Origin: a virus
DNA length: 64,000 bases
IMG/VR virus record: IMGVR_UViG_3300022752_000024
Location: 1 to 64,000 of that record
Direction: 5' to 3' (one strand)
Within the stretch, counting starts at the first letter, position 1. The number at the start of each line of letters is the position of its first letter. Positions 8,467 to 15,371 of this stretch are shown here, piece by piece. The notes below the pieces were generated by a model. That model was not told where the DNA came from, did no database searches, and was given only the letters and a program-made list of their open reading frames with translations. Both the position numbers and the translations under genes were made by a program.

Positions 8467-8474
8467 TATTTATA
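8467..8474 (-). promoter_or_regulatory. Late promoter TATAAATA
   Basis: Exact T4-type late promoter octamer on the minus strand. It overlaps the 3' end of gp41 and lies just upstream of the nuclease-like gene starting at 8445. gp55 (encoded at 34 kb) would recognise it with the gp45 clamp. Confidence 0.7.
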
Positions 8475-9873
8475 CTTTAAAACCTGCAAATTTTTTCTTT
8501 GTGTTTTTGGGTTGTTCACGATCACCAAAAGAATTTAATGGCTTATTATCTATTTTTCCAGCATCTACGATACCATCTTGAGCAGATTGCTCAACGTCAA
8601 ACAGTCTCATTTTTGCTCTATCAATACCTAAAGCAAATCTCTTATGTGTTGTGGGATCAGAATATCTATTCTTCAACTGTTTGACCATGATCTGACCAAG
8701 TGCTTCAAGTTCTTCTGAAGTAATCAATGCAAACATCAAGTCTGCTGTAGCGGGCAAACCAAAAGACTCACTCGTATCTTCGAGTCCTGGGTCGGAACTT
8801 GTAAAACCACTTCTCGTTGTTTGTGTAGCAGATACAATTGGTACTGAGAATTCAACGGCAAGACCTCGCAGTTCTTCTGCGATGGCTTTAACATAAGTGT
8901 AGCTGTTGACATTTGCTCCGGCTTTGACTCTAGCGGAGGAACAAATATTAAGATAATCAATAAAAATAATATCAGGAAGAAAATTTTTCTTGAGATGGAG
9001 TTCATTAAGTAGAGTTCTAAAGTGAATTGTTGAGGCAGATGCGGTTGGATATTCTTTAATGATTAATTTTCCAGTAGTATTTGTTCTAACTCTCTGAACT
9101 TTTTTATCATACATCTCTTTCGATAGTAGCATCAGATCGTCAACAGTAACATTTAAGAGATTTGCATCAATTCGTTCTGCAATTTTTTCTTCTGCCATCT
9201 CTAAGGTAATATAGAGAACATTCTTTCCTTGAACCATACAACCTGCTGCAACATGACACATAAACAATGACTTACCAACACCAGTGCCTGCAAGAGCAAT
9301 ATTGAGAGTCTTGATTGGAAGTCCGCCTTTTGTGATTTTGTTGAAATACTCTAGATCAAAAGGAATGCGTTCTTCTTTTCTATGATAGAATTCGTATCGA
9401 TCATCTGCATTTTCTAGATAATCATGACCCACGTTAGTATCGAATCCAACAGCAAGAGCATCTGCAAGAATTTTAGGAATTGCACCTTTGTCTTGAGTCT
9501 TATCTTTACCATCAAGAATAGAAATTGATCCAAGGACAGCATTGTAAATAGCTCTCTCTTGACAGAATTGTTCTGTCTTGTCGATCAGCCATTGTACCTT
9601 AGTGTCCTCAGATTTATTCTGTTCGATTTCTTTTACATATTCCTCACAACGACTTAATTCATCACTCGTTAAATTTTTTCTTTCTCTAAGGGCGATGATT
9701 AAGGTTTCAAAGTTTGGTGTAGTGTTATATGAGTTAACAAAATTTGCAACTTCATCAAATAGAGTCTTCTCTGTTCTGTCCGAAAAGTATTCTGGTTTTA
9801 TGAAAGGAATAACTTTACGTAGATATTCTTCATTGTGTACCAGGTTGGTCAATATCGTCTGTTCCAGCTTCAT
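8470..9873 (-). CDS. gp41: Replicative DNA helicase gp41 (DnaB-like)
   Basis: The protein is 467 aa, starting at the ATG at 9873. The N-terminal helical domain is followed by a RecA-like core with Walker A GTGVGKS (about 196-202), Walker B IIFIDYLN (about 300), and SATQTTRSGF (sensor/motif H3-H4). Length fits T4 gp41 (475 aa). It unwinds DNA ahead of the phage polymerase and, by family, interacts with primase and the gp59 loader, neither of which is in this window. It overlaps the small upstream gene by 44 nt. Unlike gp41 genes fractured by split inteins in marine data, this copy is intact. Confidence 0.95.
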   Translation of the reverse strand: MKLEQTILTNLVHNEEYLRKVIPFIKPEYFSDRTEKTLFDEVANFVNSYNTTPNFETLIIALRERKNLTSDELSRCEEYVKEIEQNKSEDTKVQWLIDKTEQFCQERAIYNAVLGSISILDGKDKTQDKGAIPKILADALAVGFDTNVGHDYLENADDRYEFYHRKEERIPFDLEYFNKITKGGLPIKTLNIALAGTGVGKSLFMCHVAAGCMVQGKNVLYITLEMAEEKIAERIDANLLNVTVDDLMLLSKEMYDKKVQRVRTNTTGKLIIKEYPTASASTIHFRTLLNELHLKKNFLPDIIFIDYLNICSSARVKAGANVNSYTYVKAIAEELRGLAVEFSVPIVSATQTTRSGFTSSDPGLEDTSESFGLPATADLMFALITSEELEALGQIMVKQLKNRYSDPTTHKRFALGIDRAKMRLFDVEQSAQDGIVDAGKIDNKPLNSFGDREQPKNTKKKFAGFKV

Positions 9874-10153
9874 CAATTATGTCCTGTTCAAGGTTGCCTG
9901 ACATGATCTGCACCAATAGATCACCAATATTATTTTTAAATTTGGTATCTTTCTCCAACTCTTTAGGTGTACTAACTTCAGATTCTAACACATCATAAGC
10001 AAAAAGTAAATACATTTCTCCGTTTTTTTCTTCAAATTTTACTTTACCATATTTGAAAACAGTATCAGCATATTCACCAGTAAGTAGTCGAACATGAACC
10101 GTTTGTTCTTCATCTTTTGGATATATGAAACAGTAGTCTATTCCTTCAGTCAT
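9830..10153 (-). CDS. Conserved small acidic protein between uvsX and gp41
   Basis: The protein is 107 aa. The N-terminal half looks beta-rich (MTEGIDYCFIYPKDE, VHVRLLTGEYADTVFKYGKV); the C-terminal half is acidic and helical. I recall genes of this size and position in marine T4-like phages but cannot assign a function. The ATG directly follows the uvsX C-terminal fragment's stop (10154), so it is co-translated with the recombination genes. Confidence 0.6.
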   Translation of the reverse strand: MTEGIDYCFIYPKDEEQTVHVRLLTGEYADTVFKYGKVKFEEKNGEMYLLFAYDVLESEVSTPKELEKDTKFKNNIGDLLVQIMSGNLEQDIIDEAGTDDIDQPGTQ

Positions 10154-10699
10154 TTATGCTCCATTCGTTGTTTCTATGTTAAATGTTTCTTCCACAATGT
10201 CATTAGTAATAATGTCTCCATTAGAAACACTATATTTTCTTTCGACAAATTCACGGAAGGTCTTTTGTTTCAAAATAGATGTCCAAAAGTCTTTAGTATC
10301 AGTTTCTTTCAGTCTATATTTTTTATCTTCATACACACCATCTTCATCTCTCTTAGAATACCAACCATTACTAGGTTTAATTACATGACCACTTTCGAGT
10401 GCAATATCCAGTAAACCAGACCACTTACTAATGCCACCATCAAAGGATACACTAACAGGAATTTTTGATTTCTCTTTAACATATCGACTCTTTTCAACAT
10501 TAATAATAAAATTATATCCAACAACTTCAGTTCCTTCTTTTTCTTGTTGACGTCCAAGAATGAATATATTATCTGCTGAGTAATAACTGCCCGTGTTATG
10601 TGTAACTATACCGTTTTCTAGAACATAATGTTCAGCATCTTTAACTGAAATATCATATACCTTCTTTTTACCAACAGGCGTTACTGATTTAATTTTCAT
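10154..10699 (-). CDS. uvsX: Split-intein C-half fused to C-terminal half of UvsX recombinase
   Basis: The protein is 181 aa. I chose the ATG at 10699 because AAAGGA lies 8 nt upstream; a longer frame from 10726 adds nine residues. Residues 1-35 form an intein C-terminus: YDISVKDAEHYVLENGIVTHN (about 15-35) contains the block F/G pattern with final His-Asn. The extein starts at Thr36 (TGSYYSADNIFILGR) and matches the C-terminal half of T4 UvsX after its GG/TGVMYSAD position, ending with NVEKSRYVKEKSK and FDGGISKWSGLLD. It can only act after trans-splicing with the N-half encoded just upstream; the spliced UvsX would be about 356 aa, the usual size. Confidence 0.9.
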   Translation of the reverse strand: MKIKSVTPVGKKKVYDISVKDAEHYVLENGIVTHNTGSYYSADNIFILGRQQEKEGTEVVGYNFIINVEKSRYVKEKSKIPVSVSFDGGISKWSGLLDIALESGHVIKPSNGWYSKRDEDGVYEDKKYRLKETDTKDFWTSILKQKTFREFVERKYSVSNGDIITNDIVEETFNIETTNGA

Positions 10700-10700
10700 T

Positions 10701-10874
10701 TTATGGTTTCCTTTTACATTTATCATTATGCCATCTTTTTAGATTGGAGGCAGTTGTTACAATATCACAATAAGAACATTTATATTTCTGTTCAGGTTTT
10801 ATCTTTCTTGGATTCACCCAATCATCACATTTAAATCTTAGTATTCTGCTGAGTTCATACCGGCAACTAAATCC
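10701..10874 (-). pseudogene. Out-of-frame zinc-finger reading frame between the uvsX intein halves
   Basis: This is an open frame of 57 codons in the -1 frame relative to the intein N-half, with no ATG, ending TAA one base before the ATG of the C-half. It encodes YKCSYCDIVTTASNLKRW followed by HNDKC, a C-x2-C-x12-H-x3-C pattern. That pattern is typical of the C-terminal zinc finger of HNH/GIY-YIG homing endonucleases in phages. It is probably the last remnant of an endonuclease that once sat inside the intein. The stop placed next to the C-half start suggests it may still be translated by frameshift or from a non-ATG start (a GTG lies at codon 20). No upstream nuclease domain is visible. Confidence 0.6.
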
Positions 10875-11746
10875 TTAGCCTCTACCCATTCATTATCAAT
10901 TAAAAATTTATGTTTATCTGAACAAATAACCTTATATCCGTCTTCAAATTCAACTTCAAAACACTCAGGCTCACCATCGTCTAGTGTTTCTGGATTCCAT
11001 GTATATGTCACTTCTTTGTTACCGTCAAGTGTTTTAACTAAATCGCCAACTACGAAATCCTCAACAGATTTAAATGTCCCATCTGATAATTGTATTTTTG
11101 TACCAGCAACTAAACATCCACCACCAACGATATCTTTAGGAAACATTCCAATTTCTTTGTATGTATGATTAACAACGATCATAGGAATATCCTTCATAGT
11201 CAAATGAGGAGTCACCATTCTAAACAATGATTTGATTTGTTTTGCTCTAGACATGTCTGCAACAGATTTCCCTTCGAGTGCATCATCAACTTCTTTCTTT
11301 GATGCTAAGTTGCCTATCGAATCAATAATGATAATTAGCTTATCATCGCGGTCCAAAGAAGTTAATTGTTGCATGACATCAAATTTCAATTGTTCGATAT
11401 CAGTAAGAGGGGTATGGAGCACACGATCGGTATCAATACCGAATGAATTGAAATAAGATTGAGGAGTCCCAAACTCAGAATCGTAAAATAGTAAAGCAGC
11501 GTCATTGTATTTGTCCAAATAAGATTTTGCCATCAAAAGTGAAAATGCAGTCTTAAAATGCTTTGATGGACCTGCCCACATAGTAAGACCAGGTGTTAAT
11601 CCACCATCAAGTTTACCAGAGAGAGCAATGTTGATGGCGGGAATAGATGTTGGGATCATGTCTTTGCTCGTAAAGAACTTAGACTTCGAAAGAATAGCTG
11701 ATTCTTTGATACTACTATTCTTTTTAATTTTATCGAGAATACTCAT
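10838..11746 (-). CDS. uvsX: N-terminal half of UvsX recombinase fused to split-intein N-half
   Basis: The protein is 302 aa. Residues 1-210 are UvsX: GPSKHFKTAFS is Walker A (about 59-69), DKLIIIIDSIGNLA is Walker B (about 137-150), and VVNHTYKEIGMFPKDIVGGG leads to the break point. Residue 211 begins an intein with block A CLVAGTKIQL and block B YKVICSDKHKFLI, ending after 92 intein residues with GMNSAEY and a stop. The intein lacks the F/G blocks, which are encoded in the next gene, so this is a split intein. It starts ATGAG overlapping the upstream membrane gene stop. UvsX pairs homologous DNA for repair and late replication, with UvsY as mediator. Confidence 0.93.
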   Translation of the reverse strand: MSILDKIKKNSSIKESAILSKSKFFTSKDMIPTSIPAINIALSGKLDGGLTPGLTMWAGPSKHFKTAFSLLMAKSYLDKYNDAALLFYDSEFGTPQSYFNSFGIDTDRVLHTPLTDIEQLKFDVMQQLTSLDRDDKLIIIIDSIGNLASKKEVDDALEGKSVADMSRAKQIKSLFRMVTPHLTMKDIPMIVVNHTYKEIGMFPKDIVGGGCLVAGTKIQLSDGTFKSVEDFVVGDLVKTLDGNKEVTYTWNPETLDDGEPECFEVEFEDGYKVICSDKHKFLIDNEWVEAKDLVAGMNSAEY

Positions 11747-12825
11747 TTGTCTTCCTTTTCTTTGAATGCTAGTGGTGATTCTTCATATTCATATGATTCT
11801 AATTTAGTCTTTCTATTAGGAAATCCTCTCTTACTTGCCTTGTTATTTGAAAGAGGTGGTATCGTCTCTCCCGATACTTCATCTATGACAATGAGATTTT
11901 CTTTGTGAACTTGTAGAACTTCACTAGGGCTTTCCTGAGGTCTAGGTTCTTCTTTCCGGGGAACTTCTTCATTAGTCTCAGTCTCTCGTTCCTCAAGCTT
12001 CTTTTTAGCTTCCTGTACTCTTTGATAGACCGGGTCTTCATCTTTTTCATTCTGTTTCTTTTTAGGTTCTTTTTCTTCTCTATTTGCCATAGAAATGTTA
12101 CTTGCAATCAATAGTAACACAGCCAAAGGATCAAATACAACCATGATTAGCATAATTACCAAACGAACTGCTTTGTCGATAATATCTTTATCACCAGAGC
12201 CATAAATTAATTCGGCAACATATTTAATCGGTCCGAAATCCGATTCAGCCTTGCGGAGGTCATTCGCAAGCGGCGATCTTTCTTCTGTGAGTTTACTAAT
12301 CTCTTTTTGTTGCCTCGTAATTTCTTCAGTAAGTTGTATGCGCTCTTTCTGTTGGGTTTTGCGGATTTGAACCGACCTCTCCGCTCCTTTCGCATCTTCA
12401 GTTCGTACCATGACTTGGTCCACAGCCGCATCAAGCTGTTTGAGTGCCAACTTGTTTGCATCGACATTCTCCTTTAATGTTTTTATCTTCTCATCATAAG
12501 TCAATACTTTGTCTGCAATAGGACCAATGTCAGTAGAATGTTCTAAATGCGCTTTTGACAAATAACCAAAAATGCCCATCGATGTGATGAGCATTAGAAT
12601 TGCTACCGCAGAAGTCAAATACCATTTTAATATTCCTGGTGCTGTTTTCCAGTTACGATACAACCAAGACGTAGTTACTAATTTTGCAGATTCTAATACT
12701 GAACCCATCAAAACAACAGGCCAAAATGAACCTGGAAATATTGATGCTAATCCAATCACGGAATAGTAAGCAGCCACACCAGAGAGTAATATGGCATTTA
12801 AAAATGTAAATAGTGCTGTTGTCAT
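11743..12825 (-). CDS. Multi-pass membrane protein with central coiled coil
   Basis: The protein is 360 aa. Hydrophobic segments lie at about 4-30, 34-50, 68-89 and 219-243. A long charged heptad-rich region between 105 and 195 (DEKIKTLKEN, EEITRQQKEISKLTEER) should form a coiled coil. A cytoplasmic, highly charged tail (KEPKKKQNEKDED) follows. It sits between gp43 and uvsX, overlapping both by 4 nt, a position shared by similar proteins in marine T4-like phages as I remember them. It may anchor replication or recombination complexes to the membrane. That role is a guess from context. Confidence 0.6.
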   Translation of the reverse strand: MTTALFTFLNAILLSGVAAYYSVIGLASIFPGSFWPVVLMGSVLESAKLVTTSWLYRNWKTAPGILKWYLTSAVAILMLITSMGIFGYLSKAHLEHSTDIGPIADKVLTYDEKIKTLKENVDANKLALKQLDAAVDQVMVRTEDAKGAERSVQIRKTQQKERIQLTEEITRQQKEISKLTEERSPLANDLRKAESDFGPIKYVAELIYGSGDKDIIDKAVRLVIMLIMVVFDPLAVLLLIASNISMANREEKEPKKKQNEKDEDPVYQRVQEAKKKLEERETETNEEVPRKEEPRPQESPSEVLQVHKENLIVIDEVSGETIPPLSNNKASKRGFPNRKTKLESYEYEESPLAFKEKEDK

Positions 12826-15371
12826 CTGAAGAAATCCTCAAGTGTACTTCGCTTTTCTACTTCCCACCCCATACAATCTAAAACGACTTTAATAGGTTCA
12901 AGAAAAGCTTTTTCGAATTGCATATTATAATCGATATATTTTTCTAAGTCAAATTCTTTTGGGAGTTTTACTGGAAAAGATATGACAGTCTCTTTAAATG
13001 GATTTGGAGCTTTGAGATATGAAAACTTGATTTTCTCACCTTCATTAATTAATGGATATTTCTTATCAAGATTCATTCGTTTGAGTGCATTATTATATAT
13101 GATTGCACCTTTAACATGAATAGGTGTTCCTTTGGAATATAAAGTAACTGAATTGGAATATTTGTTAATGCCACGAATTCCTCGAGGAAATGATATATCT
13201 TCTGCTGGTAGATTTATAAATTCTGATCGAAAATCACTGATGAATTTTTGTATATCTTCTTCAGTACCATGCATCATTAGTTTAATTGTTTGTTTCATCT
13301 TCTCACGAATCGGTGCTGGTGTAGAAGATTTTACCATCTCAAGACCCATCACTTTCAGATGAGGCTCTGCATATTGAACACCTTCATTATTATATACATT
13401 CATGATGTAACGCTTCTTTGCAGTCCAGATACCTTTATCTGCAAGAGCTTCACGTTTCATTTCCATCTTTTGTTCATATGCATGGACATAATCAGTAAGT
13501 GTCTGATAGCTTTGATCAATATATGGTTGAATTTTATCTTCACATACCTTATCCATAAACGAGATAATTTTATCAGTTCGCTCTCCTGATTGAAAGACTT
13601 TGTTCACCAAGCCACCAAGTTTAAGATAAATTGAATCTGTATCTGACGCAATAACATAATCTTCATTTTCTGTTTTAAGTAATTTGTTCAAATAATCATT
13701 TAGTGCATTTTCAATCCAACGAATCGATAGCTGACCAGACATCGTGACTGCTAGAGCAATACGCAAATCAAAGAAACGAAAGAATTCATTACCCATCGCA
13801 CCATATGCAGAGTTCAAACAAACTTTTTTTGCTAGTTGAAGATTATTATATCGTGCAATACGTTTTTCTATCACAAATCTTTTTGCTGAATCGGTTTCTT
13901 TCTCTAAGTTTTGTTTAGCTTCCAGCGATTTCTTTTTATACACCTTACGATCTTCATACATTACTTTCATGAGTTTAGGAAGAAAACCTTGTTTATTTGT
14001 ATAGAAGAATTGTCCGTTAGGGGTAACTGTAACATTAGTGAGTCTTGAAGTATCTACCTGCTGCATTAATAGAGAATCAACAGAAACTCTCTGTGAAAGA
14101 ACTTCATGCATTTCATCTGTATAGTCATCTGAATTTACCAATGTTTCGGGAGAAAGATTGTATTGCATGATAAGGTGTGGGTATAGACTGTTCAAGTCAA
14201 ATGATGCTACCCAATCATGTTTACCTACTTGCGGTTCTTTCACATAAGCACCTTCAAACGCTTGAGACTTATCTTTTCGTTCTGTAGGTGGAATAATTAT
14301 ATTGTCTTTGCGTAAGAAGTTGTATATGATGATATCCCACATACGAACTTGTGTAAACACATCATCATAATTGGTTTTACTATCATATGCTAGAGTCAGA
14401 GCCAATTCAATCAACTTCAGCTTATCTTCTAATTCTTCAATTAGTTGAACGTCAACAATATTATATTCAATAAATTTTTGAAAATTGAGTTTATATAATT
14501 GATGCAGAGAATTATATTCATCGTAAGATAGTTTTTGTTTGTCTAGTTCTACATTGGCAATACTATCTAACTTATATGATTCTTGTGATGCACCACCAGG
14601 AGCATACTTACGATACAGTTCAATATAATCAAGCATAGACACGCCAAATATTTCATAGACGGTATGATCTTTAGCCATCAATACTGCTCTGCGTTCGGCA
14701 ATATAATTCCAAGGTGAAAGTGATTTTGCGTCATCCTCAGAAAGGATACGTTTAAAACGATTGATTAGATATGGGAAGTCAAAGAACTTGATATTCCAAC
14801 CAGTAACGATATCTGGACAATTATCTTTCCAGTCTTTTAAAAATCGCTTACATAACGTCCATTCATCTTTGCATTTGATGTATGTTACAGAATTATCGGT
14901 GTTTTGAAAATCACCACAACCATATACTGTTGTTCCGCCATTTAATTGACGAACAGCGATTGCAGTAATTGGCTCACTAGCAATTGCTGGATCAGGAAAG
15001 CCATTCTCCGAACCAACTTCAATATCAATAATTACAATCGATAGCTGAGATTGATCCCATTCGACTTCGTTTGGATGTTGGTCTGCAATAAAATTGTATT
15101 CAAATCGAGTATTTCCGTAAATCTTTTTATTTGAAATGTCTTGATTTCGTTTTACATAGTCTTTTGCATCACGAATAGAATCAAATTTAAATTCATGAAG
15201 ATTTTCTCCATTTAGTGTTTTAAATGGAGATTCTTTACGAACTATTTCATATAAAGTTGGTTGATACTCAAAACGATCTTTTATTCGTTTACCATTAACT
15301 ACACCCCGATAGAGAATGTAGTTACCAAAACACTGGACGTTCGTATAGAAGTTCGTATAGAAGTTTGACAT
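12822..15371 (-). CDS. gp43: DNA polymerase gp43 (family B)
   Basis: The protein is 849 aa. The exonuclease domain has VIIDIEVGSENG (Exo I) and GWNIKFFDFPYLI (Exo II). The polymerase domain has motif A DLNSLYPHLIMQYNLSPE (about 391), motif B KVCLNSAYGAMGNE, and motif C SDTDSIYLK (about 569). These are the full catalytic residues of a proofreading family B polymerase. Length is close to T4 gp43 (898 aa). No intein is present. It replicates the phage genome with the gp45 clamp and gp44/62 loader. The start overlaps the LSm-like gene stop by 1 nt. Confidence 0.97.
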   Translation of the reverse strand: MSNFYTNFYTNVQCFGNYILYRGVVNGKRIKDRFEYQPTLYEIVRKESPFKTLNGENLHEFKFDSIRDAKDYVKRNQDISNKKIYGNTRFEYNFIADQHPNEVEWDQSQLSIVIIDIEVGSENGFPDPAIASEPITAIAVRQLNGGTTVYGCGDFQNTDNSVTYIKCKDEWTLCKRFLKDWKDNCPDIVTGWNIKFFDFPYLINRFKRILSEDDAKSLSPWNYIAERRAVLMAKDHTVYEIFGVSMLDYIELYRKYAPGGASQESYKLDSIANVELDKQKLSYDEYNSLHQLYKLNFQKFIEYNIVDVQLIEELEDKLKLIELALTLAYDSKTNYDDVFTQVRMWDIIIYNFLRKDNIIIPPTERKDKSQAFEGAYVKEPQVGKHDWVASFDLNSLYPHLIMQYNLSPETLVNSDDYTDEMHEVLSQRVSVDSLLMQQVDTSRLTNVTVTPNGQFFYTNKQGFLPKLMKVMYEDRKVYKKKSLEAKQNLEKETDSAKRFVIEKRIARYNNLQLAKKVCLNSAYGAMGNEFFRFFDLRIALAVTMSGQLSIRWIENALNDYLNKLLKTENEDYVIASDTDSIYLKLGGLVNKVFQSGERTDKIISFMDKVCEDKIQPYIDQSYQTLTDYVHAYEQKMEMKREALADKGIWTAKKRYIMNVYNNEGVQYAEPHLKVMGLEMVKSSTPAPIREKMKQTIKLMMHGTEEDIQKFISDFRSEFINLPAEDISFPRGIRGINKYSNSVTLYSKGTPIHVKGAIIYNNALKRMNLDKKYPLINEGEKIKFSYLKAPNPFKETVISFPVKLPKEFDLEKYIDYNMQFEKAFLEPIKVVLDCMGWEVEKRSTLEDFFR

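Follow-up and report, generated by a model that had tools for sequence, protein, structure and literature searches.

How a phage could obtain a working UvsX recombinase from a gene that lies in two pieces is the question raised by the uvsX locus of IMG/VR virus record IMGVR_UViG_3300022752_000024. The record comprises 142,881 bases, and the stretch of 64,000 nucleotides (nt) analysed here is referred to as the window. The split uvsX lies on the minus strand between T4-type replication genes for DNA polymerase (12822-15371) and a gp41-type helicase (8470-9876), and the same record also contains genes for a major head protein, a tail sheath and a terminase. An earlier inspection of the letters alone, hereafter the sequence-only reading, had proposed that functional UvsX is made by trans-splicing. 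Our analysis makes it highly probable that uvsX is a fractured gene, in which UvsX would be made by protein trans-splicing of two separately translated halves and in which the remains of a composite element persist.

Both open reading frames (ORFs) are as the sequence-only reading had described them. Gene 1 (10838-11746, minus strand) encodes UvsX residues 1-210 and a 92-amino-acid (aa) intein N-half (IN); its product passes the extein/intein boundary DIVGGG/CLVAGTKIQL and continues as CLVAGTKIQLSDG...CSDKHKF...NSAEY, followed by a stop. Gene 2 (ATG 10699 to 10154, minus strand) encodes a 35-aa intein C-half (IC) and the last 146 UvsX residues; its product begins with MKIKSVTPVGKKKVYDISVKDAEHYVLENGIVTHN (M(10699)KIKSV), passes the boundary ENGIVTHN/TGSYYSADN and runs to the UvsX C-terminus at 10154. 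The first ATG in the gene 2 ORF, at 10726, would add nine residues overlapping an endonuclease stub discussed below. ATG 10699 is the better start, because it is preceded, at a distance of 9 nt, by a predicted ribosome-binding site, AAAAGGA, and is the start used by nearly all relatives and by PHROG 18112.

Both genes match the T4 UvsX structure 3io5 (E-values of 1.2e-62 for gene 1 and 9.7e-39 for gene 2), and the two matches meet at one point (T4 MGGG/TGPMYSAD), which bears out the claim that T4 UvsX is continuous at the matching site. Once the exteins are joined at the predicted junction, the UvsX domains are colinear (PF00154, the RecA ATPase core, and PF21134, the T4 UvsX C-terminal domain). 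The resulting protein of 356 aa aligns end to end with the intein-free environmental UvsX of L119 (90.2%, 356/356, no gap); L-numbered loci (L005, L017, L182 and so on) are relatives compared with the window. A gap within eight residues of the junction was found in 0 of 130 intein-free relatives, a set chosen for its GGGTG motif and hence informative on colinearity, not on frequency. The predicted spliced sequence includes DIVGGGTGSYYSADN, and the joined exteins predict DIVGGG-TGSYYSADNIFILGR across the junction. Complete conservation of the RecA glycine pair G211-G212 has been reported for distant homologs of RecA, namely RadA/Rad51 and UvsX (PMC2663765), and the intein would be inserted directly after the equivalent pair.

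The residues expected of a splicing intein are present. The window intein has Cys1, a block B of VICSDKHKF, a terminal His-Asn and a +1 Thr (THN/T). Cys1 is found in the window and in all 20 aligned loci, whose IN halves are 49-86% identical to that of the window. Across these loci the S and H of block B are invariant, with C, T or V at the first position (compare CSEEH in gp41-1), as is the C-terminal HN; the +1 residue is T, or S in L025. Nucleophile, block B, His-Asn with its +1 residue and homology to known inteins together characterize a class 1 intein with a Hint splicing domain. PF14890 (Intein_splicing) scores 37.2 bits, over its cut-off, spanning both genes when the stops are read through, and this is its sole hit in the record. 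The layout is that of a naturally split intein: a stop, a 138-nt gap and a new start divide it at the endonuclease-insertion site, and a fused relative joins the halves in cis at the point where the window intein splits. The intein of this fused relative, L017, has the gp41-1 intein as its best sequence match (6qaz, 4.6e-6). A fold search with its AlphaFold model again gave gp41-1 as the best match (6qaz, 3.5e-5; TM about 0.4), in a list of mostly intein and Hint domains. The comparisons that the sequence-only reading had named as a check, with UvsX and, here through the fused relative, with gp41-1, come out in its favour. Its further suggestion that halves of 92 and 35 aa could splice very fast has to be dropped, since speed is not inferable from length. 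An AlphaFold model of the whole L017 precursor was too poor (pLDDT 50.7) and was discarded; joint MAFFT alignments that combined IN, IC and the cis form put the C-halves in the wrong place and were excluded from inference.

Compared with the closest relatives, pN/pS is 0.19-0.31 for IN, 0.13-0.28 for IC and 0.16-0.42 for the exteins, with synonymous changes near saturation. These values indicate strong purifying selection on both intein halves. Two-chain phage enzymes have precedents in the split NrdA of phage Aeh1 and the split gp43 of phage 25 (PMC2988022), and the UvsX halves might likewise assemble non-covalently into a working enzyme without splicing, the intein pieces serving as docking tails. 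We consider this improbable: docking alone would need neither an invariant Cys1, His, His-Asn and +1 nucleophile across diverse loci nor purifying selection on the halves, and in the fused one-gene versions, if unspliced, an insert of about 140 aa would remain in UvsX behind its conserved GG.

A contiguous uvsX elsewhere in the genome would have spoken against trans-splicing. No second uvsX was found in the 142,881-base record, where each half occurs at one place. Homologous split uvsX genes are present in 25 cultured-phage records (IN 56-67% identity), some of them GenBank/RefSeq duplicates; carriers include Yersinia TG1, Escherichia HY03, Shewanella Thanatos-1, Proteus Pm5461 and PM2, Pseudomonas PspYZU05 and Vibrio VmeM-32. 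In the cultured genomes deposited as complete, each half has a single place among the matches listed, and a second uvsX was not found. The records annotate the halves as separate genes, named 'DNA repair protein', 'recombinase', 'recombination protein' or hypothetical, and among those examined only a note in VmeM-32 mentions HintC. These Straboviridae loci share with the window the gene, the insertion point, the two-gene layout and a homologous intein; they differ in having a GIY-YIG endonuclease, mostly full length, in the gap. Of the suggested origin in marine phage-like DNA, the phage setting stands, while the restriction to marine sources does not, given the enterobacterial, Proteus, Shewanella, Pseudomonas and Vibrio phages above.

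UvsX is not strictly essential in T4, and the window locus does carry a decayed endonuclease. It could accordingly be imagined that uvsX is broken and non-functional, having decayed once an endonuclease had inserted, and that the host or a different protein provides recombination. Exteins and intein halves with a pN/pS of 0.13-0.42 against close relatives and no stop, and a split uvsX beside which many complete cultured phages have no other copy (among the matches listed), make such decay a very slight prospect. Slighter still is the chance that the gap is removed at the RNA level by a group I or II intron, or that the split is an assembly error. Endonuclease-bearing introns are common in T4-like phages, but here the gap is flanked by intein halves, and dozens of independent contigs, as well as cultured genomes, share the arrangement. 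An intron family search of 9800-12800 gave no hit except a sub-threshold CRISPR repeat model (E 0.7), and an RNA intron was rejected.

Trans-splicing to a 356-aa UvsX is therefore the best reading, supported by the conserved catalytic residues, the purifying selection, the lack of another copy in cultured phages and the fused version. Three points weigh against it: splicing is deduced from sequence; the AlphaFold intein model has only moderate confidence (pLDDT 65.6, TM about 0.4 to inteins) and lends weak structural support; and the record of 142,881 bases may be incomplete, so that a distant second uvsX in the window phage keeps a small probability.

What the sequence-only reading missed is the nature of the gap. 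Its 138 nt correspond to the final 40-50 codons of a gene for a homing endonuclease (HNH/NUMOD3/zinc finger), with a zinc finger 70-79% identical to those of L020, L022 and L024. In most relatives the gap measures about 500-1070 nt and contains an intact endonuclease gene, which in environmental relatives is of the HNH/NUMOD3 type with a C-terminal zinc finger; the HNH match, at 19.4 bits, is slightly below the Pfam cut-off of 21.4, and NUMOD3 is above its own. Comparison of the window with L020 and L170 places the junction at a short shared AGATT. This would fit the loss of about 600 bp, if the ancestor resembled these relatives. A free-standing endonuclease lies between the halves in L020, L022, L168, L184 and the cultured phages; the window has the C-terminal stub only, and its locus is most aptly described as a fractured gene from which the endonuclease has been lost. 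Stubs occur in several separate groups of relatives.

The 3' end of the endonuclease gene probably survives because its last codons (tgt aaa agg aaa) supply the AAAAGGA ahead of the gene 2 ATG, and the reduced versions in relatives retain a similar purine-rich site. We treat the stub as a putative leader for gene 2 through this 3' end. The stub as a working protein was set aside: its pN/pS against L020 is 0.11, a low value that could predate the deletion, and inspection revealed no convincing start signal for it. In one relative (L101:3205-3468), the endonuclease has an in-frame internal deletion that keeps the start, the N-terminus and the zinc finger in an 88-codon stop-to-stop ORF, possibly a DNA-binding remnant.

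Intact, deleted and fused versions of the element occur among the relatives. L183, L184, L189 and L190 have an intact 234-aa endonuclease in a gap of 732 nt, while a remnant of 52 nt is left in L186, L187 and L188, and of 36 nt in L185. In L017, L018 and L182, IN and IC share one reading frame (...SVEY-EEI-MKIK...), and the linker gaggaaattATG coincides exactly with the stretch that, in the split forms, ends the endonuclease gene and holds the ribosome-binding site plus the start codon. The fused L182 and the split L190, with an intact endonuclease, are 99.9% identical over 963 nt before the endonuclease and 98.5% over 2,248 nt after it; the fused L017 and L186, with its 52-nt gap, are about 98% identical. 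In an intein tree with few strongly supported branches and an arbitrary root, the fused forms are nested in the split group, and endonuclease loss needs about five changes. The relic linker and this nesting suggest a direction from split to fused. The opposite order is disfavoured because the C-terminal codons of the endonuclease would have to land exactly on a pre-existing matching sequence. A second contiguous uvsX intein, at L199:3986-4390, has another linker (SGGRVKL) without the start codon relic, and may represent an independent or older fusion.

The sequences also show that the element moves horizontally among the relatives. Among L017, L182, L184 and L185, nucleotide identity is 97.7-100% in IN and 99-100% in IC. 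In the flanks of the latter three compared with L017, it is 74-82% over 300 bp of N-extein and 63-81% in the C-extein, with sharp breaks at the intein ends. An intein identity of 98-100%, set against 73-82% in the flanking UvsX of the same phages, is the pattern expected from homing of the whole element. The closest UvsX relatives of the window (90% over 356 aa) have no intein, and its closest intein is in another phage, L168 (86%), with an intact endonuclease. A life cycle seems likely in which the element moves as a unit, the endonuclease is repeatedly deleted, and the halves are then, in some lineages, fused in-frame by a further deletion to a mini-intein with the linker EEIM, in which the ribosome-binding site and start codon of gene 2 are translated; the window phage would be an intermediate in a natural reversion from split to contiguous.

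The sequence itself shows the architecture of the locus, its conservation, the selection on it, the endonuclease stub and the horizontal movement of the element in relatives; from it we infer splicing activity, homing activity and a ribosome-binding-site role as follows. The two uvsX genes would be translated separately, and the 92-aa IN and 35-aa IC would associate and fold as one Hint domain. The class 1 route, through Cys1, the block B His, the penultimate His, the terminal Asn and the +1 Thr, would then join UvsX 1-210 with the C-terminal 146 residues in a normal UvsX of 356 aa. What remains here derives from a composite mobile element of IN, a free-standing homing endonuclease gene and IC. 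In the window phage, the endonuclease has been deleted but for the 3' end with the predicted ribosome-binding site of gene 2, which would leave the phage dependent on trans-splicing and no longer able to home by itself. The features of the locus are presented in Table 1.

Table 1. Features of the split uvsX locus, in window positions.
Feature	Position	Strand	Basis
uvsX gene 1 N-extein, UvsX residues 1-210, Walker A GPSKHFKT, Walker B IIIIDS	11117..11746	-	T4 UvsX structure match; 90% to intein-free UvsX once joined to C-extein
IN, 92 aa CLVAGT...NSAEY + stop; Cys1, block B CSDKH	10838..11116	-	ORF and alignment of relatives
Gap, stub of free-standing homing endonuclease gene, C-terminal zinc-finger codons WVNPRKIKPEQKYKCSYCDIVTTASNLKRWHNDKCKRKP + stop	10701..10837	-	70-79% identity to HNH/NUMOD3 endonuclease C-termini encoded in the gap in L020, L022, L024
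Putative deletion junction near TAAGATT	10834-10840	-	Junction comparison with relatives
Predicted ribosome-binding site AAAAGGA of gene 2, within last codons of endonuclease stub	10709..10715	-	Sequence; position matches split relatives
IC, 35 aa MKIKSV...GIVTHN, start ATG 10699	10595..10699	-	ORF, alignment of relatives
uvsX gene 2 C-extein, 146 aa, +1 Thr, T4_UVSX_C domain, + stop	10154..10594	-	PF21134 at 2.4e-17; T4 UvsX structure match

Polymerase and uvsX are separated by a gene of 360 aa (11743-12825) with N-terminal membrane-like segments and a coiled-coil-like middle, for which PHROG matches are weak only (best E 0.00077).

Other split or intein-like genes were observed among the relatives. 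A second intein, split in an atypical manner, interrupts the Walker A loop of the gp41-type helicase in related phages (ALAG/TGVGKS; L187:5804-6291, L018:3855-4342, L190:3165-3781, L182:4917-5533). Its IN has just 16 aa (CVHPETRVRIRFRKKQ, then a stop), and its IC has roughly 110-120 aa and ends in GVSSHN. Where it accompanies the split uvsX intein, single phages therefore contain two split inteins of different layout; it is absent from L017 and the window. The DNA polymerase of Vibrio phage VmeM-32 is encoded in several genes with an intein-C-like match (L005:2659-2736), possibly another fractured gene. A hypothetical protein of Salicola jumbo phage SCTP-2 (MF360958.1:203783-204007) gives a 44% match to the IN half.

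In kind, the locus belongs with the known fractured genes, its split intein being of the typical class 1 type. Like the Dassa-type fractured genes (gp41-1, gp41-8, NrdJ-1, IMPDH-1; Dassa et al. 2009, NAR 37:2560), it has a split intein that interrupts a conserved enzyme of DNA metabolism at an endonuclease-insertion site, with an IN of about 90 and an IC of about 35 aa in a phage setting, and its relatives share the endonuclease between the halves. It differs in the host gene, in the gap endonucleases (HNH/NUMOD3/zinc-finger or GIY-YIG/NUMOD3) and in the reduction to a stub in the window. The new endonuclease family of Dassa et al. 2009 is reportedly Vsr-like, and eight enzyme types were reportedly described there, which may include UvsX. 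Among the papers available to our search, none reported a UvsX split intein; priority may lie with that study. The split PolB inteins of T4-like phages (Aes123 PolB1, CP21 PolB1) are also naturally split and in replication genes, but are cysteine-less, interrupt another host gene and have, in the newer ones, an IN of 115-120 aa (PMC11923092, PMC12707363). The sequence-only reading regarded a recA-family gene as a distinct insertion site. Mycobacterial RecA inteins share the RecA-family host protein and are contiguous, with sites that differ between M. tuberculosis and M. leprae (PMC5874633); a RecA-family host is thus new for a split intein only, as far as checked. What goes beyond the known is the endonuclease-deleted state of the window locus, together with the occurrence in nature of a series of versions that are intact, deleted or re-fused.

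This near-isogenic set, with the endonuclease present, deleted or fused away, offers a natural comparison for the origin, persistence and reversion of split inteins, and the new split-intein pairs in culturable phages are directly assayable. The host gene, moreover, encodes the strand-exchange enzyme needed by homing itself. Given that the complete cultured T4-like phages apparently have no UvsX other than one joined from two proteins, trans-splicing may be required for their recombination.
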